Source: Nitrosomonas sp.
Lineage (GTDB): Bacteria > Pseudomonadota > Gammaproteobacteria > Burkholderiales > Nitrosomonadaceae
Reading direction: 5' to 3'
DNA: 54,988 bases
NCBI GenBank assembly: GCA_021604405.1
Contig: BQJA01000009.1
Span: 1 to 54,988, forward strand
Part shown: positions 2,879 to 54,381 of the stretch, in pieces
Position numbering within the stretch: the stretch's first letter is position 1
Layout: each line of letters opens with the position of its first letter
The notes under the pieces: model-generated
What the model was told of the DNA's origin: nothing
Database searches by the model: none
Seen by the model: the letters and a program-made list of their open reading frames with translations, nothing else
Made by a program: the position numbers and the translations under genes

Positions 2879-3892
2879 TCAGTCAAACAATGCGTCAACA
2901 AACTCGCGCGCATCAAATGGCTTTAAATCTTCTAAACCCTCTCCAAGACCAATAAAACGTAACGCTGGTGGATTTTGCGGATACTGGCCTGAGATTGCTG
3001 CAATTACACCCCCCTTCGCTGTACCATCAAGCTTGGTAAGAATCAGTCCTGTCACACCTAACGCTTCATCAAACACTTTAACTTGCATAATTGCATTCTG
3101 ACCCGTATTTGCGTCCAGCACCACTAATACTTCATGCGGCGCATCCGGTATTGCCTTGCCGATAACACGCTTCACTTTTTTAATTTCTTCCATCAAATGC
3201 AATTGTGTAGTTAACCGACCGGCAGTATCCGCCAGAACAATATCAATATCGCGCGCTTTGGCAGCATTAACCGCATCAAATATGACAGCAGCTGGATCGC
3301 TTTTTTTCCCTGGTTCACTTTCCTGCGCAATAACGGTAATATCGTTACGTTCACCCCAGGTAACCAGCTGCTCACGCGCAGCCGCCCGAAAAGTATCGCC
3401 AGCCGCAAGCAATACTGATTTTCCCTGCGATTTAAAATAATAGGCAAGCTTACCAATTGACGTGGTCTTTCCGACACCGTTTACACCGGCAATCATGAGT
3501 ACAAATGGTTTTTTAGTCGTCGTATCCAGTGGTTGCTGTAATGGCGTCAGCAATTCAACCAATAATTCCTGCAAAGCCAGCTTCAACTGCGCCGCATCGG
3601 TCAAACCATCACGTTTGACTCTTTTGCGAAGATTGCCAAGCAATTGTTCCGTCGCATTTACACCGGCATCGGCACTGAGCAAAATAGTTTCCAGCTCTTC
3701 GTACAAAGCCTCATCTATCCTGCCGCCACCAAACAAGCCAGAAAGCTGCTTACCAAAGTTTTGCCTGGTGCGGGAAAGTCCATCCCGGATCTTACTGGTA
3801 AAACTTATCTTTTCTTCGGATACCGATTCATTTTTCGCTGTTTCGGATGAAGATTCATCAGAATCTTTTTTGGATTTAAAAATATTAAACAT
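2879..3892 (-). CDS. ftsY: Signal recognition particle receptor FtsY
   Basis: SRP receptor GTPase that docks ribosome-SRP complexes at the inner membrane. The 337 residues have a short charged acidic N-terminal A domain (about 1-35) followed by the NG domain: G1 GVNGVGKTT, G3 DTAGRL, G4 TKLDGTAKGG, and the closing FIGLGEGLEDLKPFD. Its partner Ffh is encoded at 34489-35835 in the same window. It heads the ftsY-ftsE-ftsX run and is divergent from the M16 peptidase, with only 80 bp between starts that must hold both promoters. Confidence 0.97.
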   Translation of the reverse strand: MFNIFKSKKDSDESSSETAKNESVSEEKISFTSKIRDGLSRTRQNFGKQLSGLFGGGRIDEALYEELETILLSADAGVNATEQLLGNLRKRVKRDGLTDAAQLKLALQELLVELLTPLQQPLDTTTKKPFVLMIAGVNGVGKTTSIGKLAYYFKSQGKSVLLAAGDTFRAAAREQLVTWGERNDITVIAQESEPGKKSDPAAVIFDAVNAAKARDIDIVLADTAGRLTTQLHLMEEIKKVKRVIGKAIPDAPHEVLVVLDANTGQNAIMQVKVFDEALGVTGLILTKLDGTAKGGVIAAISGQYPQNPPALRFIGLGEGLEDLKPFDAREFVDALFD

Positions 3893-3972
3893 TCTGGTAG
3901 TGTAGGATGCTAATTAATATAAGTTCGCAAACCCCGATTTTATTCTGTTTACCCATCATTAGGTAAGTAATA

Positions 3973-5364
3973 ATGAAAACTAATTATGTTATGACATTTA
4001 CATTTTTCCGCCTTCTCGCTGCTCTCATGGTCCTGACGCCAGCTGCAATATATGCCAATCCACATGAATATATGCTGGAAAACGGTTTAAAACTGATCGT
4101 AAAAGAAGATCACCGCTCGCCAGTCGTCGTTTCGTTGATCTGGTACAAAGCTGGCAGCATTGACGAACTGAATGGCGCAACCGGTATTGCGCATGCGCTT
4201 GAACATATGATGTTCAAAGGTACAAAAAAAGTGCCTGGTGGCGAGTTTTCAAAACGTATTGCTGCGGTGGGCGGGCGCGACAATGCCTTCACCAGCCGTG
4301 ACTATACCGCATATTTCCAACAATTACACAAACAGCATTTACCATTGGCAATGGAACTGGAATCGGACCGGATGCGCAATCTGGTTCTCACCAAAGAAGA
4401 ATTCACCAAAGAAATGAATGTCGTTATGGAAGAACGACGATTGCGTACTGACGACAAGCCACACGCTCTGGTTTATGAAAAAATGATGGCCGTAGCTTAT
4501 CAATCACACCCATATAAACGTCCGGTTATCGGCTGGATGAATGACCTGGAAAATATGCGCATGGAAGACGCACAGGAATGGTATGACCGCTGGTATGCAC
4601 CTAATAATGCTATTCTGGTAATTGTAGGCGATGTCAACGCAAAAGACACCTATCAATTGGCTAAAAAATATTATGGCGCTATTAAAGCGCGTCCACTGGT
4701 TCCTTTAGACGAACGCAAACCTCAAACCGAACCCCCACAAGCCGGGATGAAACGATTAATAGTAAAAGCGCCGGCTAATTTACCCTATCTTGTCATGGGC
4801 TATCATGCACCCGCACTTCGAGACGTTACCGAGGACTGGGAACCCTATGCACTCGAAATGCTTGAAGGCGTTCTCGATGGTAACGCATCAGCACGACTCA
4901 ACAAAGCTCTGGTCCGCGAAAGCCAGATAGCCAATTCAGCAAGTGCAGGCTATAGCATAACAGCGCGTGGGCCCAGCATGTTTTATCTTGACGGCACACC
5001 CAGCGAAGGAAAAACCGTTCTGGAGTTAGAAGAAGCCATACGCAGCGAAATTGAAAAACTTATCCGTGAAGGCGTGACAGAAAAGGAACTTGCTCGCGCC
5101 AAGGCCCAGGTAGTCGCAAGCCATGTATATCAGCTTGATTCAATTTTCTCCCAGGCAATGCAGATTGGCCGATTGGAAAGCATTGGGTTATCCTACCGCG
5201 ACCCCGACATGATATTGAAAAAGTTGCAGGCAGTAACTGCCGAACAAGTACAAAGCGTTGCGAAAAAGTATTTACAGGATGACAGCCTGACAGTGGCAAC
5301 ACTTGACCCACAACCCCTGGAACAAAATCAACCAGCCAATGTTCCTGATGGATTTCGACATTAA
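3973..5364 (+). CDS. M16 family zinc metallopeptidase (PqqL/YmxG-like), exported
   Basis: Probable periplasmic zinc peptidase of the pitrilysin clan. The 463 residues start with a signal peptide (cleavage near AIYA-NP, about residue 29). The inverted zinc motif HxxEH is H74-ALE-H78, with the third ligand in VVMEERR (about 153-154), the correct 74-76 residue spacing. A second, non-catalytic M16 domain fills the C-terminal half. Related genomes often carry a second, inactive M16 gene directly downstream. Here none follows, and the next 570 bp hold no clear gene. Substrate unknown. Confidence 0.92.
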   Translation: MKTNYVMTFTFFRLLAALMVLTPAAIYANPHEYMLENGLKLIVKEDHRSPVVVSLIWYKAGSIDELNGATGIAHALEHMMFKGTKKVPGGEFSKRIAAVGGRDNAFTSRDYTAYFQQLHKQHLPLAMELESDRMRNLVLTKEEFTKEMNVVMEERRLRTDDKPHALVYEKMMAVAYQSHPYKRPVIGWMNDLENMRMEDAQEWYDRWYAPNNAILVIVGDVNAKDTYQLAKKYYGAIKARPLVPLDERKPQTEPPQAGMKRLIVKAPANLPYLVMGYHAPALRDVTEDWEPYALEMLEGVLDGNASARLNKALVRESQIANSASAGYSITARGPSMFYLDGTPSEGKTVLELEEAIRSEIEKLIREGVTEKELARAKAQVVASHVYQLDSIFSQAMQIGRLESIGLSYRDPDMILKKLQAVTAEQVQSVAKKYLQDDSLTVATLDPQPLEQNQPANVPDGFRH

Positions 5365-5936
5365 CTTCTATCAACCGTAACCAATGATAAACAATCAGTC
5401 GACAATTCAGATAACCCAACAGCATTATTGACAAATTACGACTTATAATATTGATATTTATGGGATTAGATATCTTCAGCCGACCATTCGGTGTGGTATT
5501 TATCCCATAAAATAACTTTGAAAAATCACCTTGCCATACGGTATTCTCAGCTGCATACTACGCGCTGTAAATTTTTCATTACCTTTAAAGCACGGTATCT
5601 TGGCGAATAGATTCTGGAAGCATTTTAATGAATGTCGGAATGCGGTACCCGGGCCCGCGCAAAACAGAAACCCGACCTACATTTCCTAATAAAGTGAGCG
5701 CACCAAATACAATACCCGGTATTTCATATGGTTTATCAGTTAAAAATACACTTCTTTTCATACTATAAGCGTTGTTGCTATCCAGCTCGCCATCGTTTGA
5801 TGTTAATACCCTGTTATCTGAGTCATTTTACAAAGAGAAAAGATAACAGTACATATTTTCATTGCACGACAACCACAACGGCAAGCTGAATATCTATGAA
5901 CAATACATAAATGCGCCACAAAATAATTTTTCTGGA
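5365..5936. other. Gene-poor stretch between the M16 peptidase and the P460-family gene
   Basis: 572 bp with no convincing full-length gene. It holds a 58-codon minus-strand ORF (5585-5761, listed separately) and otherwise AT-rich sequence. I see no clear terminator hairpin with a T tract. Loss of a second M16 gene would fit, but no M16-like residues can be read here. Confidence 0.5.
5585..5761 (-). CDS. Small ORF or gene remnant, 58 aa, unknown
   Basis: ATG-started frame encoding MKRSVFLTDKPYEIPGIVFG... and ending ...PESIRQDTVL. The frame stays open for about 22 more codons upstream without another ATG (reading NDSDNRVLTSNDGELDSNNA), which suggests the tail of a decayed gene rather than an intact small gene. 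I do not recognise the sequence. There is no obvious Shine-Dalgarno. Composition looks protein-like, but chance is not excluded. Confidence 0.25.
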   Translation of the reverse strand: MKRSVFLTDKPYEIPGIVFGALTLLGNVGRVSVLRGPGYRIPTFIKMLPESIRQDTVL

Positions 5937-6467
5937 TTATTTTATATTCTTAACGAAATCAACAAGCTTCTGATAAGTAAACATATAATCCTGCCCTTTC
6001 AGCGGGGTATGACACTGAACGCAATCAAGGTCATTCTCTTTTGGCATACCACTGGGGTCATAAAGGGCATAGCCCCAATCGCCTGTACGATTTTCAGCAG
6101 AATAAGTATCGCCCCAGGTATGCCGATTCTCCATCACCGCAATTGCCTCTAGTGTATCAATCTCAAAAATCCCGTCCTCTCCAGGAATTGGCGTACCATC
6201 CGCATCTTTCCTGGGACTATATATTTCCATGACAATGATAGAGCCTGATGCTGCCTCTGACTTATCGTCTTGCGTATGGCTGGCAACCGCAGCTATATTG
6301 GCATAAAGCTTGGCCACTTGCTTTTGATTGGCGCGATTCATCGTTGCATAGTTCGAGAAATTTTCGTATCCCTCAGGTAATTTAACAAATTCAGGATCGC
6401 CGCCGCCATAGGCAACCAATGGCGAAATGGCAATTAAAATTGCGATGATTCTCAACGAAGCTTTCAT
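5937..6467 (-). CDS. Cytochrome P460-family c-type heme protein without the cross-link lysine
   Basis: Periplasmic mono-heme protein. The 176 residues have an N-terminal signal peptide (about 1-21) and a C-terminal heme-binding CVQCH at 149-153, followed by the family-typical DYMFTYQKLV. In Nitrosomonas europaea cytochrome P460, which oxidises hydroxylamine, Lys70 of the motif DGTVTVKEL cross-links to the heme. The equivalent segment here reads SGSIIVMEI, placing Met80 where that Lys should be. It is therefore more likely a cytochrome c'-beta-like or uncharacterised P460 paralogue than a true P460. The ATG has a good AAGGAGAG upstream, and 248 bp separate it from plsC, so it probably has its own promoter. 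Confidence 0.88.
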   Translation of the reverse strand: MKASLRIIAILIAISPLVAYGGGDPEFVKLPEGYENFSNYATMNRANQKQVAKLYANIAAVASHTQDDKSEAASGSIIVMEIYSPRKDADGTPIPGEDGIFEIDTLEAIAVMENRHTWGDTYSAENRTGDWGYALYDPSGMPKENDLDCVQCHTPLKGQDYMFTYQKLVDFVKNIK

Positions 6468-6715
6468 GCGATATCTCTCCTTATTAATGAAATAGTTGAT
6501 CGACTGGACTTGCCAGCAAATATAGAATTTTATGAGGCCATGGAATAACAGCTAGCTTAGAGTTATTCATTTTTTTAGCCATCTAAGCAGCTTTACACTT
6601 TATTATATGCACAGAACATGACAATAGAAAACCCATAAATGAAAATGCCGCAACTTACTATCCCCATTAAAACCGCTCATAAATCAATACAATCCAAAGC
6701 GTTGCATTTGGATGC

Positions 6716-7471
6716 TCATGTTTCTTCACTTCTTTCTAATCCAGCATTCTGGCATGTTATAGAGTAATTACTTATACGTTTAGTTTCTGCTTCGATCCAT
6801 GCTTCAACCTTAGCGTTCAAGTCACCAGGCTCCATACCGGTCGGATTAATCGGTGTGCCAATGCTCACCGTGATCGTGCCAGGCCGTTTAATAAATGAAT
6901 TCCTCCCCCACAGCTCACCTGCATTATGCGCCACTGGCACGACTGGAACATTGGTATGTGTCGCAAGCCATGCGCCACCAATACGGTATTTACCCTTTTT
7001 TCCCGGCGCAATGCGTGTTCCCTCGGGAAATATCACCACCCAGAATCCCTGCTCTAGTCGATCCCTGCCTTGTTCAACAACTTGCTCTAAGGCTGCTTTA
7101 CCTGAACTGCGATCGATTGCGATGGGACTGGTCATTGCCAAACCCCAACCGAAAAAAGGAATGCGTAACAATTCTTTTTTAAGCACCCACACCTGCGGCG
7201 GAAAAATCTTTTGAAATGCAAGCGTTTCCCAGGCGGACTGATGCTTTGACAACACAATACTGGGCGTCTTTGGAATATTTTCATCACCCAGAACACGATA
7301 TTGGATTCCACAGATCACACGCAACAGAAACAACATCAAAAGTGTCCAACGGGATGTGACCCGATAACGATTCTGCGCAGAAAGTGGAAAGCAGGCAAGC
7401 GTTATAAGCGCATAAGGTGGCGTAATAATGATCTGCAACAACATATAAAGCGTCGAACGCAATATTGCCAT
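6716..7471 (-). CDS. plsC: 1-acyl-sn-glycerol-3-phosphate acyltransferase
   Basis: Transfers an acyl chain to lysophosphatidic acid to make phosphatidic acid at the inner membrane. The 251 residues have hydrophobic N-terminal segments (about 8-30 and 41-55). The acyltransferase block I is SKHQSAWE with catalytic His77; the acidic partner is Glu82 rather than the textbook Asp, as I recall for relatives in this lineage. Block III is FPEGTR at 148-153. It lies 8 bp after gmhB, the last gene of glyQ-glyS-gmhB-plsC. Confidence 0.93.
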   Translation of the reverse strand: MAILRSTLYMLLQIIITPPYALITLACFPLSAQNRYRVTSRWTLLMLFLLRVICGIQYRVLGDENIPKTPSIVLSKHQSAWETLAFQKIFPPQVWVLKKELLRIPFFGWGLAMTSPIAIDRSSGKAALEQVVEQGRDRLEQGFWVVIFPEGTRIAPGKKGKYRIGGAWLATHTNVPVVPVAHNAGELWGRNSFIKRPGTITVSIGTPINPTGMEPGDLNAKVEAWIEAETKRISNYSITCQNAGLERSEET

Positions 7472-7479
7472 GATTCTGC

Positions 7480-8013
7480 TTACGCGACCAGCGAATCGAC
7501 TGCCGCAGCCAAGTCGGCAAAAATCTTTGTCCCTGCCGGCAACTTGTCTCCAGATTCTGTTTTTTTGCCATTGCCCGTCAATACCAGAATCGGCATCGCC
7601 CCAGCTTGCGCAGCGGCCTGCAAATCCCGCAGCGAATCACCAATGGCTGGAATATTCTTAAAATCAACACTATATCGCTGCATAATTTCCTCAAACATGC
7701 CAATTTCCGGTTTACGACAATGGCATTTATCCAAATGTGTATGCGGACAAAAAAATATCGCATCAATACGCCCACCCAGCTGGCTCAATGCCTTGTGCAT
7801 TTTTGCATTAATCGCATTAAAAGATGCCATATCCAATAAACCACGGCCTATACCGGACTGGTTGGTAGCAATAATTACCCGATAACCCGCCCGGGTCAAC
7901 CGCGCAATCGCCGCCAGACTGCCCGGGATTGGTTTCCATTCTTCCGGCGTCTTGATGAAGGCATCGCTACCATAATTTATAACGCCATTATTATCGAGAA
8001 TAATCAGTTTCAC
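7480..8013 (-). CDS. gmhB: D-glycero-beta-D-manno-heptose 1,7-bisphosphate 7-phosphatase, altered motif I
   Basis: HAD-family phosphatase of the LPS inner-core heptose pathway. The 177 residues start at a GTG. HAD motif II (ATNQSG), motif III Lys (CRKPEIGMF), motif IV (IGDSLRDL) and the zinc loop (CPHTHLDKCHC) are present. Motif I, normally LDRDGVIN with an Asp nucleophile and Asp+2 acid/base, reads LDNNGVIN here (GAT AAT AAT GGC), so Asp7 is kept but the +2 Asp is Asn9. The enzyme may be impaired, or the change could be a sequencing error. It sits 22 bp after glyS and 8 bp before plsC. Confidence 0.92.
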   Translation of the reverse strand: MKLIILDNNGVINYGSDAFIKTPEEWKPIPGSLAAIARLTRAGYRVIIATNQSGIGRGLLDMASFNAINAKMHKALSQLGGRIDAIFFCPHTHLDKCHCRKPEIGMFEEIMQRYSVDFKNIPAIGDSLRDLQAAAQAGAMPILVLTGNGKKTESGDKLPAGTKIFADLAAAVDSLVA

Positions 8014-14915: not shown

Positions 14916-15782
14916 CTAAAAACCAATGCCTACATAGCCGCCTGCGGTCATGCCGTCAACCCTGACACCATCCGACTTGCCAGCGGTCAAATGATAACGG
15001 CCATCGATACCAATATAAAAATCTTTCCAGATATTATAATCAGCGCCCGCACCAAACATCACCCCCGGGGTTAAATATGTAATTGACTCCGAGGTTGGAC
15101 TGAATACATGAATTGCCAGGCCTGCGGGAATAACCCAGGGTCTAAACTTTGAACCCGCCATAAATTTGATTTTAGGCGAAGCGGTTAATGTAAACTGACT
15201 GACTGTTACATCGCGCGGATTCAGCGTACCGCCAGCCAATTGTGTCGGGATATTGGCCAGCGCGTTGCCCTGCACATCATTGGCGAATTGTTTGTATTCA
15301 AACATAATTTCACCGGAAACATCGGTCTTGGGCAGATAACCCCACAAATCGTTTGTCAGGCCAAAGTCAACACCGGCGCCAACATACCATCCATTTTCAT
15401 CCGCAGTGTCTTGGGCCCCAAGCGGCACAACATTACTGGTAATACTCGAACCATGGCGTCCCTGCATCGCATGCGTGAAACCGCCGCGGAAGAACAACAT
15501 GCGGCTTTTACGGTTTGCCTGAACCGCCAGACCATCAGCATGAGCCGCTACCTCCTCAACCTGTTTAACATGCTCTGCTTCTAGAGCGGCCTCATTCTTT
15601 ACGCGTTCCATTTCATTCTGAATGGCTCTCAATTGTTCTTCTAGCCGTCGCATTTTTTCTTCCAGTTCACTAGTATCTGCATCCTTAGCCCATGCCTGCG
15701 GCACAGCCATTGCCAAGACAATTACGAGTGAACTAACCGCAACACTGGTACGCACCCGCGTCTTGCCCAAAAAATACTTCAT
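14916..15782 (-). CDS. Outer-membrane beta-barrel protein with N-terminal coiled coil
   Basis: 288 residues: a signal peptide (about 1-32, ending AWA), a heptad-like coiled-coil segment (about 38-80, rich in E, K and L with QLRAIQNEMERVKNE), then a domain of alternating polar and hydrophobic beta-strands ending in a terminal Phe (GYVGIGF), as is usual for proteins inserted by the BAM complex. The coiled coil before a small barrel recalls trimerising or peptidoglycan-contacting porin-like proteins. AGGAGG lies just before the ATG. A perfect Fnr-type palindrome lies about 110 bp upstream (15885-15898). Exact function unknown. Confidence 0.8.
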   Translation of the reverse strand: MKYFLGKTRVRTSVAVSSLVIVLAMAVPQAWAKDADTSELEEKMRRLEEQLRAIQNEMERVKNEAALEAEHVKQVEEVAAHADGLAVQANRKSRMLFFRGGFTHAMQGRHGSSITSNVVPLGAQDTADENGWYVGAGVDFGLTNDLWGYLPKTDVSGEIMFEYKQFANDVQGNALANIPTQLAGGTLNPRDVTVSQFTLTASPKIKFMAGSKFRPWVIPAGLAIHVFSPTSESITYLTPGVMFGAGADYNIWKDFYIGIDGRYHLTAGKSDGVRVDGMTAGGYVGIGF

Positions 15783-16159: not shown

Positions 16160-18952
16160 TTATGGCGCCGGGTCAAGCTGTTCTCCTGTCAATCCTGTTT
16201 TCCATTCTCCAGGCAGGTTCTGCACCCAACCGTTATACACGTTCGGTATCGGCAGAACACCTTGACCACCCATGCCGGCTAAGCTGACAACGGCATCATC
16301 CGTAGTTGCGCTGCTATCAGCCATCGCAACAGTGCCTGCAATTTTTGCATCAGCAAAATTTCCGTCACCATTCGGATCCGGATCAACCACGATCAACCGA
16401 TTGGAAAACTTGCTGGACACATAAGCATAATAGCCACCGCCCGCTTTAGCGCCGAAATTGACGCCATGACAGCCTGGATCACAAGGCAGCATGGCAACCA
16501 CCTTATCGGTGCTGGTATCAACGAGCGTGATGCTACCTCCGGTATTCGCGGTAACAACCACGCGGCCGGTCGGATCAACCGGTGTCTGAATCGGGAACAC
16601 GCCAACTGTTACCAGCCCATCACCGTCCTTGTCAGTTAATGTAGTCGGACCAGTCGGACTGATGGGATCATAATCCGCAAGGAGATTGATTGTTGTTATT
16701 GGATTGCCATCAAAATCATAAACACTGAGGGAATGATCCAGCAGGTTGGCGGTATAGACTTTATCGACACCGATACCAACAGCAATAGGATGGGGGCCGT
16801 GAGGGAAGTTGCCACCCGCCGCAGGCCGAGTAAGTATCTGCCCGGTATTACCATCATAAAAACCGGTATCCGACGTATTGATATTTGGCGTAACAATTTT
16901 TCCTTCTGGCGTTATCCAATGACCATGCGGGTTTGCCGGAATCTGGCCGGCAAGCTGGGTTGGCATACTGACGTCTGGCGTCGTTGTACCTGCGGGAACC
17001 CGAACCACCATATTTTCACCGTTGATGGCGACGGTGATATCATCACTGGTTGGGAAGGTCATCACATGGGAAGGTGAATCGCCGATGCGGACATTATCAA
17101 TCATTGCACCATCCGCCTGGTTAATAAAGGTTAACTTATTATCAAACCATTGCGTCTGAAAAATAATTGACTGATCACGACTGCTCCACATATTATGCGG
17201 ATTGTTCATGTCGATCGCGGGTAACGCAATCTTACGTTTGATCTTCCAGGTCGCCGTATCGAGTACAGTAATCGTCCCGGGTTTGGTTTTTCCTGCCGTT
17301 TTCTCAAACTGGGTATTGATCCATACTTCACCGACGCCCGCGGGACTTCCATTGTCTGCCGGAGTTTTTAATTGTTCCAGCGCAATATTCTGACCGTATC
17401 TGTCTTCCAGGACGGTTTTTAATGGCAGATTATCAACCACATTTCCATCCAGATCCCCGATAGCGACAGGCACATCAGGATAGCTTACTGTCCAGGGCGC
17501 CGTTGAGGTATAGTCCTGCCAGTTCTCCTGAGTAGTGGCAACAAAGAAAGTCCGTAATATGCGAGTCGCCAGATCACTGATGGTTGGCAAATCTTTAATA
17601 CCGGTAGCCAGGTCGATTTTAGTGCCCAGATCCAGTCCTTCTGTGCTGGGGTCATCAACAATCACCGCACCGAACATGTAAGGATGAATCTTGCACGTAA
17701 AGACATAAAGGCCCGGCGTATCCAGTTTCACAGTCGCGCCGCCCCGATAGGCTTTGGTCTGATCAAATGGAATCGAATGTTGCTCTCCCTCATCTGCCTC
17801 ACTTGGCCATATTAAAGTCGTGATGGTATGCACCGCGTTAGTATCCGACATCACAAAATGCGCACTGCTGCCCGGCGACATCACTTCCAGTGATCGGGTT
17901 TTAGTGATCGGCGCCAGCGCATCCGAGCGTGCGCTTCTAAACCAACTGCCCGGTTCATCTGAAACTTCAAAAGTAACCAGACCTGGTTCACTCTGATTGG
18001 GACCCAGCAGAATCGCGCCGTAAGGCGTTGCACCCGCAACACTGTTTCCTGCAGATGCACCTGGTTCATCTACCCGGAATCTGGCGGCCATACCGGATTC
18101 CATATGCGAAACCACATGGCAATGCAAATGCCACATACCCGCGCCGACACCCGTACCCGCTTTAACGGTAAAGCTATGCCCATCCGCTTTGCCGGTCAGC
18201 AGTTTTACGTCAATAATGTTGGGCGTATCACCCTGCTCGGCGGGCGCAACTTCACCCAGCCAGCGATGCGCATGCAGGTGAAAGGTGTGATCGTGTTCGA
18301 TGGAAAGCACGTGAAACCGTACCACCTCATCTTGTACCGCAGCTAAAACCGGATTAGTCCACAAAGGCGTCTGGGTACCGTTAACAATTTCCGCACCCCA
18401 GAATGTGGAACCAACCATATACATGATGTATTCCTTGTCTAATTCAGTACGATTAACCGCAGTAATCGTACCATCGCCCTCAACAAAACTTTGCACCGTG
18501 CCATCCGGGGCATCAACCACTATCGCACCGAACAAACCAAGTAATTGTGAGCCCTCATCATAGTATGGATGTGTGCCTTGCTGGCTGGCCGCGAATGAAT
18601 AGCTTTGCGTACCACCCCCTGCCGCTGCTTCCGCACCGGCTGGCAGGCCAGGAATATTCATGCCGACAGCAACGTTGGTGTTGTTGGTCAAGGAAATATT
18701 GATCGTATCCCCCAGCTTTACAAACAACGTAGGGCCAGGAATCACCGCCTCCGTTGGATAACTCGGGGTTGCACCTTCGCTGCTGGTATGGCTGATCATT
18801 TGGTAGCCTAATTGCCCGTTAGGCAGCGTTTCAGCCGATAACTCAATGTCATGTGTAGCCGCCAGTACAATGTTTGAACAAAACAGCATGACAGCCAGGC
18901 AAATCCACGCCATCACGGTTATTTTCTTAAATCCAAAAGTAATTGATTTCAT
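16160..18952 (-). CDS. Multicopper oxidase B subunit: two cupredoxin domains, extra type 1 copper domain and beta-propeller
   Basis: Exported 930-residue protein (signal peptide about 1-31). Residues 35-150 form a cupredoxin domain that has lost its copper ligands: the HxH and HxH positions read VGMNIPG and HPYYDEG. Residues 165-295 form a second domain with a complete set: HTFHLHAH (H222, H225, H227) and WHLHCHVVSHMESGM (H277, C278, H279, H283, M288), i.e. type 1 plus half of the trinuclear site. Residues 350-432 are a plastocyanin-like type 1 domain (H375, C420, H423, M426; FTCKIHPYMFG). Residues 460-930 look like a beta-propeller with recurrent His motifs (PHNMW, PSHVM, PHGHW, PHGPH, GCHGV). 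It follows its partner gene by 29 bp. The missing domain-1 ligands are exactly those kept by the partner. Confidence 0.88.
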   Translation of the reverse strand: MKSITFGFKKITVMAWICLAVMLFCSNIVLAATHDIELSAETLPNGQLGYQMISHTSSEGATPSYPTEAVIPGPTLFVKLGDTINISLTNNTNVAVGMNIPGLPAGAEAAAGGGTQSYSFAASQQGTHPYYDEGSQLLGLFGAIVVDAPDGTVQSFVEGDGTITAVNRTELDKEYIMYMVGSTFWGAEIVNGTQTPLWTNPVLAAVQDEVVRFHVLSIEHDHTFHLHAHRWLGEVAPAEQGDTPNIIDVKLLTGKADGHSFTVKAGTGVGAGMWHLHCHVVSHMESGMAARFRVDEPGASAGNSVAGATPYGAILLGPNQSEPGLVTFEVSDEPGSWFRSARSDALAPITKTRSLEVMSPGSSAHFVMSDTNAVHTITTLIWPSEADEGEQHSIPFDQTKAYRGGATVKLDTPGLYVFTCKIHPYMFGAVIVDDPSTEGLDLGTKIDLATGIKDLPTISDLATRILRTFFVATTQENWQDYTSTAPWTVSYPDVPVAIGDLDGNVVDNLPLKTVLEDRYGQNIALEQLKTPADNGSPAGVGEVWINTQFEKTAGKTKPGTITVLDTATWKIKRKIALPAIDMNNPHNMWSSRDQSIIFQTQWFDNKLTFINQADGAMIDNVRIGDSPSHVMTFPTSDDITVAINGENMVVRVPAGTTTPDVSMPTQLAGQIPANPHGHWITPEGKIVTPNINTSDTGFYDGNTGQILTRPAAGGNFPHGPHPIAVGIGVDKVYTANLLDHSLSVYDFDGNPITTINLLADYDPISPTGPTTLTDKDGDGLVTVGVFPIQTPVDPTGRVVVTANTGGSITLVDTSTDKVVAMLPCDPGCHGVNFGAKAGGGYYAYVSSKFSNRLIVVDPDPNGDGNFADAKIAGTVAMADSSATTDDAVVSLAGMGGQGVLPIPNVYNGWVQNLPGEWKTGLTGEQLDPAP

Positions 18953-18981
18953 TTTGTTAACCTTTTTACGCGTAATTAATC

Positions 18982-20031
18982 TCAGGGAATGACGTTGAAA
19001 TCGCCTTTCATGCCCAGCAGACTGCTAGAGAAAGCAGTATCCATATATTGAGTGTTACGGTTTGCCTGTACTGCAAAAACATACTGCTCAAGCGGACCGA
19101 TAATCTTTTCACTAATAATCAGGTTGGTTCCCGGATCAATCCAACTATAACCAGGTAATGCAAAATTATGTGTCACCGTTCCCAGCGCAACCAAATGAAA
19201 GCGGACATTACTTCCTTGCTGCGCGGCTAAAGCTGGATTATCCAAAAGCGGTGTTTGCTGTCCTGTCTGGTTGTCAATCTCCATGCCGAAGAAGGCATCA
19301 TCAACCATGAACATGACATATTCTTTATTGATACTTGAAAGCGGTACTGTGACCAATTGACCGCCTTGATCCAATGCAACCGTCTCAGCAGCGCCATTTA
19401 CGATTAATGCACCATACAATCCCCGGTCTTCAGCGCCATTGAGGGTGATCATGTTATGGTCATGATAGGCCCAGGTACCCGCCGTTCCGGGGGCTGCGGT
19501 CCAGCGATAGGTGTAACTCATGGTGGGTGTTGCACTTTCATCTTGAACTAAGTTAATGTACTCGATGGTGCCGTCGCTCAAAATATCGTAATGAACGCCA
19601 TGGACATGGACGCTGACCTGGTCTAAGGTCGCGGAGTCGCCCGGATCAAAGACATGGCGTAAGGTAATCTCAACTTCATCTCCCTCATTAATAACAATCG
19701 TTGGTCCGGGTATAGTCGGTGCCGTCACGTATCTGGCAGTGGCATCGGTTTCGTTACTGCCATCCATATCAGAAATGACATGCGAATTCATCTGATAGGC
19801 AAAACGTTCACTCCCCCCCTCCGCGCCTGCTGGAATTTTCTCGGCCCATAATTCAATCTGGTGCAATTGCCCCACGGACTGCGCAAATCCCGTCGTTGCA
19901 AAAATAAAAAAAGGTAGCGCAAAAACAAGCAATGGAAGCATGCTTTGTTTCGCACTACCTTTCTTTCGGACGGTCAGCTTTAGACATTCGTCACTCGTGG
20001 GCGACGTGCAACTAAAGTTAATGTTCTTCAT
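18982..20031 (-). CDS. Multicopper oxidase A subunit: two-domain protein with only domain-1 copper ligands
   Basis: Exported 349-residue protein. Domain 1 (about 55-215) keeps both trinuclear-site pairs: VHVHG (H142, H144) and GTWAYHDHN (H190, H192), followed by the typical RGLYGALIV. Domain 2 (about 235-349) has lost nearly all ligands: the HxxHxH block reads THNFALPGY (only H288 kept), and the HCHxxxHxxxxM block reads MDTAFSSSLLGM with no His or Cys. Alone it could not form a type 1 site. It probably pairs with the product of 16160-18952. A strong AAGGAGGGG 7 nt before the ATG supports the long N-terminus (30 residues before the signal helix). It heads the operon behind unusual repeats at 20116-20245. 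Confidence 0.88.
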   Translation of the reverse strand: MKNINFSCTSPTSDECLKLTVRKKGSAKQSMLPLLVFALPFFIFATTGFAQSVGQLHQIELWAEKIPAGAEGGSERFAYQMNSHVISDMDGSNETDATARYVTAPTIPGPTIVINEGDEVEITLRHVFDPGDSATLDQVSVHVHGVHYDILSDGTIEYINLVQDESATPTMSYTYRWTAAPGTAGTWAYHDHNMITLNGAEDRGLYGALIVNGAAETVALDQGGQLVTVPLSSINKEYVMFMVDDAFFGMEIDNQTGQQTPLLDNPALAAQQGSNVRFHLVALGTVTHNFALPGYSWIDPGTNLIISEKIIGPLEQYVFAVQANRNTQYMDTAFSSSLLGMKGDFNVIP

Positions 20032-20146: not shown

Positions 20147-20165
20147 AATATTCAATTAATATTTT

Positions 20166-20245
20166 CTTAACGTTTATTAATGTTTCTTAATGTTTCTTAA
20201 CGTTTCCTAACGTTTCTTAACGTTTCTTAACGTTTCTTAACGTTT
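20166..20245. repeat. Eight tandem 10-bp repeats (CTTAACGTTT)
   Basis: Eight head-to-tail copies of a 10-bp unit fill 20166-20245. Five are exactly CTTAACGTTT; the others differ by one to three bases (ATTAATGTTT, CTTAATGTTT, CCTAACGTTT). The period is about one helical turn, so an AACGTT core recurs on the same DNA face. The array lies 135-215 bp before the oxidase A gene (minus) and about 190 bp before aat (plus). Confidence 0.9.
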
Positions 20246-54126: not shown

Positions 54127-54335
54127 GCCCCCTACCCTTGCAATGCGGTAAATATCAACAAGGGAGGAAAATCTGCGCCGTCATACCCAGTAAACCGGAT
54201 ACCGACCATTCAAATATATTATCAGGAAATGTGGTCAAGCAGCTTTCTGACCTGAAAACAGGGCGGCGCAGACAACCGCTATGGCATCGTCCTTGTATTG
54301 CGTGATTCCGCGCCATATAATTTATATTTTCGTGT
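54127..54335. other. Stretch between the methyltransferase remnant and the riboswitch
   Basis: 209 bp, richer in G+C, probably holding more of the decayed methyltransferase and the promoter of the PACE gene. Open frames here run on both strands but none matches a protein I know. Confidence 0.4.
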
Positions 54336-54381
54336 GAGGACGACCTCCCCCCGTCTGGGGCGTTTACTCGGGACGACCCGA
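54336..54381 (+). ncRNA. Guanidine-II (mini-ykkC) riboswitch
   Basis: Two hairpins with identical ACGA loops: GAGG-ACGA-CCTC (54336-54347) and TCGGG-ACGA-CCCGA (54368-54381). This matches the guanidine-II architecture of two stem-loops with ACGR tetraloops and GG/CC closing pairs. The 20-nt linker can form a small CCCC/GGGG stem. The element ends about 24 nt before the PACE start and just before AAGGAA and GGGGAA, so translation control by guanidine is likely. Confidence 0.8.

Follow-up and report, generated by a model that had tools for sequence, protein, structure and literature searches.

Type B two-domain multicopper oxidases are described, in passages of PMC13151041, as trimeric enzymes in which each trinuclear copper site takes its ligands from two neighbouring monomers, domain 1 of the first and domain 2 of the second. 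The described members, namely SLAC, SgfSL and Ssl1 of Streptomyces and CjMCO of Cellvibrio, are homotrimers of one complete gene product, with the type-1 Cys in domain 2. A different layout is known from ceruloplasmin, which is asymmetric and has one trinuclear site; in such six-domain blue proteins the domains form one polypeptide and the asymmetry comes about by gene fusion. Among ammonia oxidisers, Nitrosopumilus maritimus has a two-domain oxidase with a C-terminal blue-copper domain (PDB 9cck, probably MCO4a, Nmar_1354), and the two-domain oxidases of N. viennensis are classed as type C in an excerpt of PMC11561398.

Here we analyse a pair of adjacent genes, A and B, in a 54,988-nt stretch of Nitrosomonas sp. 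DNA (contig BQJA01000009.1), which we refer to as the window. Both open reading frames lie on the minus strand, 29 nt apart, and share the ligand motifs of the type B oxidases, with the difference that the ligands are divided over two genes. The oxidase features are as follows.

18982..20031, minus strand: gene A (349 aa), half-oxidase whose trinuclear ligands are all in domain 1; hydrophobic N-terminal segment, putatively exported
19600..19608, minus strand: A domain 1, H142-V-H144; both His in 90/90 distinct A
19456..19464, minus strand: A domain 1, H190-D-H192; both His in 90/90 distinct A
19141..19170, minus strand: first ligand motif of A domain 2 (HNFALPGYSW), degenerate by alignment to complete relatives; His at the two trinuclear positions in 0/91 A
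18997..19056, minus strand: A domain 2, degenerate HCH block (NTQYMDTAFSSSLLGMKGDF); Cys in 0/91 A, trinuclear His in 0 and 1 of 91
16160..18952, minus strand: gene B (930 aa), half-oxidase with domain-2 ligands, extended by a fused type-1 cupredoxin and propeller; hydrophobic N-terminal segment, putatively exported
18644..18664, minus strand: B domain 1, GMNIPGL where the first ligand pair would stand; His at either position in 0/92 B
18551..18571, minus strand: B domain 1, HPYYDEG where the second ligand pair would stand; first position (Y131 in the window) His in 44/74 distinct bacterial B, second in 0/92
18272..18289, minus strand: B domain 2, H222-T-F-H225-L-H227; three His in 91/91 distinct B
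18089..18124, minus strand: B domain 2, H277-C278-H279...H283...M288; all five in 91/91 distinct B

Residues of A and B were assigned to the type-1 or the trinuclear sites according to the roles of the corresponding SLAC ligands. When the two proteins are aligned separately with two-domain oxidases, both are nearest to type B laccases, which are their best PDB sequence matches (A: E 2e-16; B: E 2e-21), and they lack opposite ligand sets, as the original prediction had it. In domain 2 of A, THNFALPGYSW replaces the HTFHLH(G/A)HRW of small laccases and complete relatives, and QYMDTAF replaces their W..HCH; what is left of the type-1 site is the position of one His (H288) and the axial Met (M341). 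The description of A as having H142/H144 and H190/H192 but no HCH block is thus borne out by the window. In B, VGMNIPG and HPYYDEG stand in place of HVHG and YHDH in domain 1, and all eight ligands claimed for domain 2 (H222, H225, H227, H277, C278, H279, H283, M288) are present, not only in the window but in 91 of 91 distinct B sequences. The claim that B has lost both domain-1 pairs is exact for the window B only, because the Y131 position is still His in 44 of the 74 distinct bacterial B sequences. A domain-2 type-1 copper set, a trait of type B, is found in B (H222, C278, H283 and M288 in 91/91) and is incomplete in A, where the Cys occurs in 0/91. Since neither chain has both trinuclear ligand sets, which stand together in one chain in all 26 complete relatives, we file A and B as a variant and not as an ordinary member of type B.

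Fold comparison places B in the same group. The AlphaFold2 model of B has pLDDT 90 and pTM 0.88, and in a structure search with this predicted model small laccases were the best fold matches of the oxidase part. The two cupredoxin domains are accordingly nearest to small laccases by sequence for A and B and by predicted fold for B. The matches that might indicate kinship to 9cck, and so to MCO4a-type hydroxylamine oxidases, are weaker for both proteins, i.e., E 4e-4 for A and Foldseek rank 9 with rmsd 17.6 for B, in each case below the small laccases; moreover, 9cck is a chain of 409 residues, with no room for a propeller. Nor do A and B make up a six-domain ceruloplasmin-like oxidase, given that A has two cupredoxin domains and B three, on separate genes; their asymmetry comes about through two genes instead of fusion.

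From the sequences we conclude, with a probability of roughly 85%, that A and B complement each other as the two halves of a single type B two-domain multicopper oxidase, i.e., an obligate heteromer with a trinuclear site between domain 1 of A and domain 2 of B. Each protein seems to have retained half of the copper centre, and activity would then probably require that A and B join; on the reading as complementary halves, neither A nor B alone could build the trinuclear site.

The split is an old conserved state rather than local decay. It is carried by Nitrosomonas (including N. europaea), Nitrosospira, Nitrosovibrio and archaea of the Nitrososphaeraceae, and throughout this set the four domain-1 His are kept in 90/90 distinct A and the eight domain-2 ligands in 91/91 distinct B. 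Columns other than ligands follow the same crossed pattern, with conservation of 0.81 in domain 1 and 0.52 in domain 2 of A, and of 0.44 in domain 1 and 0.73 in domain 2 of B; a crossing as large was seen in 0 of 10000 permutations, with the limitation that alignment columns are non-independent. In phylogenetic trees the bacterial and archaeal A sequences cluster together (support 100 in one tree and 70 in another), as do the bacterial and archaeal B sequences (support 99 in both). A survey of the genus gave a match in 44 of 60 other Nitrosomonas genomes (with a broken piece of B only in G050 and pieces only in G038), and none in the remaining 16, some of which are incomplete. The crossed conservation of ligands and other residues led us to reject a decaying duplicate, and the matches in 44 of the 60 genomes a frame-shift or assembly artefact. 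The missing half of the ligands in each chain could also be taken to mean that the two proteins decayed independently and form no trinuclear site, A being a pseudo-oxidase or copper carrier and B a type-1 and propeller electron-transfer protein, whose second type-1 motif and propeller could serve other chemistry. We regard this as very unlikely, since the trinuclear His are complete in domain 2 of B (91/91) and in domain 1 of A (90/90) in bacteria and archaea alike, and neither exact complements nor crossed retention of non-ligand residues would be expected from independent decay. The invariance of the four trinuclear His in domain 2 of B would likewise be unexpected if B used its type-1 site only.

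Gene order points to the same partnership. B directly follows A in 48/50, 19/19, 62/65 and 16/16 cases in four sets of loci, the first three of which overlap in genomes, and the five A genes with no B directly after them are at contig ends or belong to one frame-shifted locus that was counted twice. Copies increase as pairs, with two tandem pairs in L041/L123 and L112/L125 and two or three pairs in single genomes. The 10-bp repeat upstream of A is not conserved: when 162 upstream regions, in which some genomes are represented twice, were searched for tandem repeats, a comparable array turned up in the window alone. The search for the same losses elsewhere, proposed with the original prediction, showed the adjacent pair to be conserved, with two orphans lacking an adjacent partner. 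One (L218) is a B gene that has no A beside it, although two A-B pairs exist in the same genome; the other (L249) encodes domain 2, cupredoxin and propeller but no domain 1, and its genome additionally has a complete single-gene copy. Homologues with the same losses and no partner gene, which had been named as evidence against the prediction, are therefore represented marginally, by these two only. Together with four further Cu-oxidase_3 domain matches in the genome, the orphans lend some substance to the idea that A and B are each completed by another multicopper oxidase or a third protein and not by each other. The near-universal adjacency of A and B and their increase as pairs speak against it, as do the A-B pairs and the complete copy in the genomes of the two orphans, and we give this idea even less credence than independent decay.

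Complete relatives of A and B, which provide controls, have all 12 ligands in one chain and are of two kinds. The first, found mostly in methanotrophs (15/15 with all 12 ligands), includes close full-length relatives in which a complete oxidase gene is accompanied by a separate cupredoxin-propeller gene (L097, L175, L178-L180, L184, L186 and L191); gene order and cupredoxin-propeller are those of A-B, with the difference that the oxidase chain is complete and the propeller unfused. We found no published description of this arrangement in the literature searched. The second comprises single-gene oxidase-cupredoxin-propeller proteins from further genomes of the same archaeal order (L238-L247, and L248, which is cut by a contig end), which share the domain order of B but have all 12 ligands in 11/11, so a partner should be unnecessary. 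In one tree B did not group with these complete one-gene fusions, which gives no support to an origin of B from them.

We infer the assembly, electron path and catalysis, as well as the order of fusion, duplication and loss, as follows. A single chain of the ancestor would have carried all ligands, and the trinuclear site would have formed where domain 1 of one subunit meets domain 2 of its neighbour. After duplication, the copy with the fused type-1 cupredoxin and propeller would have dropped the domain-1 ligands and become B, and the other copy would have retained domain 1 while dropping the trinuclear ligands and type-1 Cys of domain 2 to become A. The two products, both probably exported, would assemble such that His 142, 144, 190 and 192 of A and His 225, 227, 277 and 279 of B enclose the three-copper site. 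Electrons may enter via the type-1 copper of the third cupredoxin of B, that of B domain 2 (H222, C278, H283, M288), or both, and O2 would be reduced at the trinuclear site. The original prediction was of an obligate heteromer with exactly one ligand set per interface. Its first part is much the best reading of the complementary losses, the adjacency, the joint increase in copies and the complete relatives. The second part does not follow, as a three-membered ring of A and B cannot alternate: of the three interfaces in an A2B or AB2 ring, the first would be complete, the second would have half of the ligands and the third none. Candidate stoichiometries are A2B, AB2 or an assembly other than a trimer.

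A predicted model of the A-B read-through (pLDDT 78, pTM 0.81) gave coagulation factor V and ceruloplasmin as first Foldseek matches, among hits that included factor VIII, at TM about 0.28 and rmsd about 20; at these values at most one two-domain unit superposes, and the modelled placement of A and B fails to reproduce a known ring. Among the matches listed by VIA-align for this model were small laccases only, over model residues 335-607, which correspond to the B unit. Among the top 100 covarying pairs between A and B, 41 joined A domain 1 to B domain 2 where 26 were expected (Neff 49), a mild excess too weak to use, and pairs between the two domains 1 were also above expectation (36 seen, 28 expected).

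Beyond the oxidase part, B carries two further domains that distinguish it from the described type B oxidases:

17654..17983, minus strand: B third cupredoxin (about residues 324-433; H375, C420, H423, M426); weak Cupredoxin_1 and Copper-bind matches, AlphaFold2 model
16238..17335, minus strand: 7-bladed YVTN/lactonase-like propeller of B, roughly residues 540-905, several of its His conserved; residues 540-915 align to 1l0q at Z 37 in VIA-align

The third cupredoxin, with its complete type-1 motif, and the propeller were absent from the original prediction. In an alignment of B with free-standing cupredoxin-propeller proteins, H375, C420 and H423 are found in 100/100 sequences, and M426 is invariant across 47 aligned rows. 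The propeller His are kept nearly as strictly in such sequences (H586 and H629 in 100/100, H829 in 99, H676 in 97, H678 in 96), and the predicted strand list would place them where several blades begin, which is suggestive of a His-bound copper cluster at the propeller hub, as in the lactonase-type nitrous oxide reductase L-NosZ. When B is compared as a whole by VIA-align, the result mainly tests the propeller. Assignment of B or its relatives to L-NosZ, or a direct link to NosZ-type N2O reduction, is not supported: the propellers of L097 and of an archaeal B (L195) score 60 and 56 bits against the L-NosZ model NF052460, far from its cut-off of 700 (the best value being 59.7 bits for L097), and the profile search returned no L-NosZ match for the window B at E 0.1. 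The hydrazine synthase beta model fits the L097 propeller almost equally well (56 bits, cut-off 560).

As to the substrate, our leading guesses are hydroxylamine/NO chemistry and Cu(I) oxidation. Carriers of the split or complete form are mostly oxidisers of ammonia or methane, organisms with a copper membrane monooxygenase. We checked 38 carrier entries outside the Nitrosomonas family, at least two of whose genomes are duplicated (G538/G565 and G539/G600): the bacterial AMO/pMMO subunit A was found in 19 of the 38, archaeal AmoA in 13 of the 15 archaeal entries, and neither in six (G186, G535, G546, G547, G548, G705). For G186 mis-binning is likely, because its contig equals L192 in length and its open reading frame lengths (unaligned) are identical to those of the Methylocystaceae contig L193. 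The association with copper monooxygenases would suit the same A-B heteromer acting in Cu(I) oxidation or copper supply for such an enzyme instead of nitrogen chemistry, as would the two-domain oxidases of N. viennensis, which are up under copper limitation and proposed to oxidise Cu(I) in passages of PMC7785015. Against this role, which we consider possible though doubtful, stand the 16 of 60 same-genus genomes without a match, some of them incomplete. In addition, a complete homologue in Methylocaldum adjoins a gene for which NCBIfam gives the NO sensor NsrR as best match, though this falls short of the cut-off and the iron regulator RirA scores nearly as well, and an archaeal two-domain oxidase, probably with a C-terminal cupredoxin, turns NH2OH into HNO according to an excerpt of PMC12448741 and a PDB title. 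We tentatively favour a reduced-nitrogen substrate (hydroxylamine, HNO or NO) over Cu(I). The full picture would be a two-gene oxidase whose O2-reducing centre exists only at the A-B contact, through duplication and reciprocal loss that preceded the bacterial and archaeal split forms, fed by a second blue copper and a propeller with a His-lined copper site, and oxidising hydroxylamine, HNO or NO in bacterial as well as archaeal ammonia oxidisers; taken as a whole, we hold it to be rather unlikely.

We found no published split two-domain oxidase in the literature searched, which left out most subscription papers and all bioRxiv preprints. The complete one-gene form, the complete oxidase with its extra domains on a second gene, and the reciprocally broken pair would together make up a rare natural series from homomer to obligate heteromer, in which all three forms survive and each ligand can be traced. 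The pair also places a conserved copper enzyme, apparently unstudied as far as we found, in soil archaea as well as in Nitrosospira and Nitrosomonas, N. europaea among them. In these ammonia oxidisers, and above all in the archaea, there is continuing debate over which enzymes handle hydroxylamine and NO after the ammonia monooxygenase step.

Two adjacent genes in the window each carry part of the ligand set of a two-domain multicopper oxidase:

18982-20031, minus strand: gene A, a real open reading frame encoding 349 amino acids
16160-18952, minus strand: gene B, a real open reading frame encoding 930 amino acids

The genes follow each other in the order A, then B, separated by a gap of 29 nt. 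Sequence motifs place H142/H144 and H190/H192 in A, which contains no HCH block anywhere in its sequence, and the ligands H222, H225, H227, H277, C278, H279, H283 and M288 in B, where the alignment puts VGMNIPG and HPYYDEG at the sites of the laccase domain-1 pairs. Both reading frames and their complementary ligand sets are thus present in the window as the original prediction described them. The best PDB sequence matches of A (E 2.2e-16) and B (E 2.1e-21) are among type B small laccases. Beyond the original prediction, B contains a third cupredoxin (H375, C420, H423, M426) and, C-terminal of it, a seven-bladed propeller. AlphaFold2 modelled B with a mean pLDDT of 90 and a pTM of 0.88, and the propeller of this model matches 1l0q, an archaeal surface-layer YVTN propeller, with Z 37 and rmsd 1.9 over 291 residues.

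Several other elements were recorded in the same contig. About 130 bases upstream of A lies a tandem array (20163-20245) of 8.3 copies of the 10-bp unit TTTCTTAACG, and comparison of upstream regions found no similar array among the homologues. Downstream of B, 14916-15782 encodes a coiled-coil and outer-membrane beta-barrel-like protein (Pfam match below the cut-off), and its homologues, facing one way or the other, are close to A-B at several Nitrosomonas loci. A guanidine-II riboswitch at 54332-54381 scores above the Rfam gathering score.

The search of other genomes for A-B pairs with the same losses bore out the division of ligands. After removal of identical and short sequences, the four domain-1 His are kept in 90/90 A and 15/15 complete proteins (all 12 ligands in one chain), and the eight domain-2 ligands in 91/91 B and 15/15 complete proteins. 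With the window included, His occurs at the four domain-2 trinuclear positions of A in 0, 0, 0 and 1 of 91 sequences. The type-1 Cys is absent from all 91; the first type-1 His is retained in 89% and the axial Met in 97%. None of the 92 B sequences has His at three of the four domain-1 positions; at the fourth it persists in 48% (44 of the 74 bacterial B versus 0 of 17 archaeal B), so that a single vestige is left. Non-ligand conservation, measured at positions nearly invariant in complete proteins (at least 14 of 15, ligands excluded), is crossed in the same way as the ligands: mean retention is high in domain 1 of A (0.81, 63 columns) and domain 2 of B (0.73), and low in domain 2 of A (0.52, 53 columns) and domain 1 of B (0.44). 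This interaction between domain and gene was reached by 0 of 10000 permutations, a count that serves only as a guide, the columns not being independent. Judged from the sequences, the split is exact and old.

According to PMC13151041, a type B enzyme is a trimer whose trinuclear site is shared between adjacent monomers, one contributing domain 1 and the other domain 2. Neither A nor B could build such a site as a homotrimer; a contact between the two could, each supplying four His. On this ground we infer, with a probability of roughly 0.85, that A and B form an obligate heteromer. The original prediction of exactly one ligand set per interface is not supported, as in a ring of three two-domain units a complete contact would be possible at one of three interfaces only. 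An A-B ring would share its asymmetry with ceruloplasmin, but here the units come from separate genes. For a model of the pair, the N. marina genes were joined by reading through the stop that separates A from B, and 18 relatives read alike served as the alignment, giving 756 residues with pLDDT 78 and pTM 0.81. Foldseek matched this model to factor V and ceruloplasmin at an rmsd of about 20, so at most one unit superposes on them; VIA-align listed small laccases alone, on the B unit. In fold, ligands and interface site the pair agrees with type B oxidases; the literature searched contained no description of a two-domain oxidase with ligands divided as in A and B. PMC12448741 names two consecutively numbered MCO3 genes of one archaeon, NFRAN_2029 and NFRAN_2030, which may or may not be an A-B pair.

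In four locus sets, the first three of which overlap in genomes, B directly follows A in 48/50, 19/19, 62/65 and 16/16 cases. The five misses are contig ends (L036/L159, judged by length to be the same contig, and L119) and one locus found in two sets (L053/L146), in which a frame-shifted B overlaps A. Conversely, A lies upstream of a long B reading frame in 46/48, 18/19, 61/63 and 16/17 cases, the misses being a contig end (L068), frame-shifted copies (L057/L153 and L110/L177) and one true orphan B (L218). Homologues with the same losses and no partner gene had been named as evidence against the heteromer; adjacency holds nearly always, but not for L218, whose genome carries two A-B pairs elsewhere. 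This archaeal orphan (3567-6710) lies between two similar reading frames of transposase-like look. Another archaeal locus, L249 (3895-6360), encodes an oxidase-cupredoxin-propeller protein without domain 1; the same genome has a complete fused protein too (L248). A and B multiply together: tandem double pairs occur in L041/L123 and L112/L125, and single genomes contain two or three pairs.

The oxidase occurs in three architectures. Ammonia-oxidising bacteria and Nitrososphaeraceae have the split form. In methanotrophs a complete two-domain oxidase is followed by a separate cupredoxin-propeller gene, a neighbour found beside 13 of 16 complete oxidases of the named set, whereas L181 (Methylocystis silviterrae) and the Nitrosopumilus-type L182 and L189 lack it. 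Other genomes of the archaeal order fuse complete oxidase, cupredoxin and propeller in one gene; all 12 ligands are kept in 11/11 of these fusions, counted from 16 loci after leaving out L249-L253 (broken, cut by a contig end or without domain 1) and including L248, itself cut at its 3' end.

The search with A, whose counts take in complete forms too, matched 45 of 101 genomes, namely the window's own and 44 of 60 from the same genus (one, G050, with a broken B fragment only), and 0 of 40 from other families of the order. Matches were found in 72/125 genomes of the family (3 of 4 genera), 4/369 of the class sample (two from the same genus), 2/388 of the phylum sample (both from the same genus), 13/70 of the archaeal family of the split locus L195, 30/390 sampled from the order that includes it, and 10/101 sampled from one methanotroph family. 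The best 80 of 120 matches to named genomes, representing 79 loci, include ammonia oxidisers (Nitrosomonas, Nitrosospira, Nitrosovibrio), methanotrophs (Methylocaldum, Methylomicrobium, Methyloglobulus, Methylocystis, Methylothermaceae), archaea (Nitrosopumilus, Nitrososphaeraceae) and some loosely named MAGs. An essential role is argued against by the 16 of 60 same-genus genomes, some incomplete, that have no match, and by broken copies; because A or B is broken or frame-shifted in some ammonia oxidisers (L085 2221-2529, L084 48-1682, L057 4309-7073, L110 4422-7198), the locus may not be needed everywhere.

As to a possible substrate, PMC12448741 reports an archaeal oxidase that turns NH2OH into HNO; going by a PDB title, this enzyme probably carries an added cupredoxin. 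Carriers from beyond the Nitrosomonas family were represented by 38 entries, among which two or more genomes appear twice. Bacterial AMO/pMMO subunit A is present in 19 entries, archaeal AmoA in 13 of the 15 archaeal ones, and neither subunit in 6. AMO occurs in 10/369 genomes of the class sample. Its absence is weak evidence, because that search found no AMO subunit A even in the assembly to which the window belongs, a Nitrosomonas genome, probably owing to an assembly gap. Beside the complete oxidase of Methylocaldum (L175) is a divergently oriented Rrf2 regulator gene (7166-7615). Its product scores best against the model of the NO sensor NsrR (142.8 bits, cut-off 182), and the iron regulator RirA is a close second (138.9 bits, cut-off 193). 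Methylocystis rosea has sigma-factor and FolE genes near its complete oxidase and NnrS about 6 kb off.

Of 100 sequences, 96 to 100 keep each of the propeller His 586, 629, 676, 678 and 829, which lie, by our reading of the strands in the B model, at the starts of several blades. The blade-start His of 16238-17335 and of free-standing cupredoxin-propeller relatives look metal-hub-like. The relatives' propellers weakly match lactonase-type N2O reductase, and equally weakly hydrazine synthase beta; a profile search found no match of the window's B itself to that reductase. The conserved His and the relatives' weak match to the reductase make a metal site at the propeller hub possible.

L119, L120 and L121, from MAGs that bear the titles Nitrospirae, Chromatiales and Pseudomonadales, also contain split-type A or A-B genes. 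In the trees these genes are nearest to those of N. marina and of the window, their MAGs gave no match in bacterial and archaeal AMO searches, and their placement reflects either transfer or mis-binning. The trees were rooted with Streptomyces outgroups, the second adding the one-gene fusions, with which B did not group. Deep supports, which bear on the order of events, are 70-83. Bacterial and archaeal A join with support 100 in the first tree and 70 with one-gene forms added, and bacterial and archaeal B with 99 in both. The simplest reading would be that each half arose once and was later transferred from one domain of life to the other.
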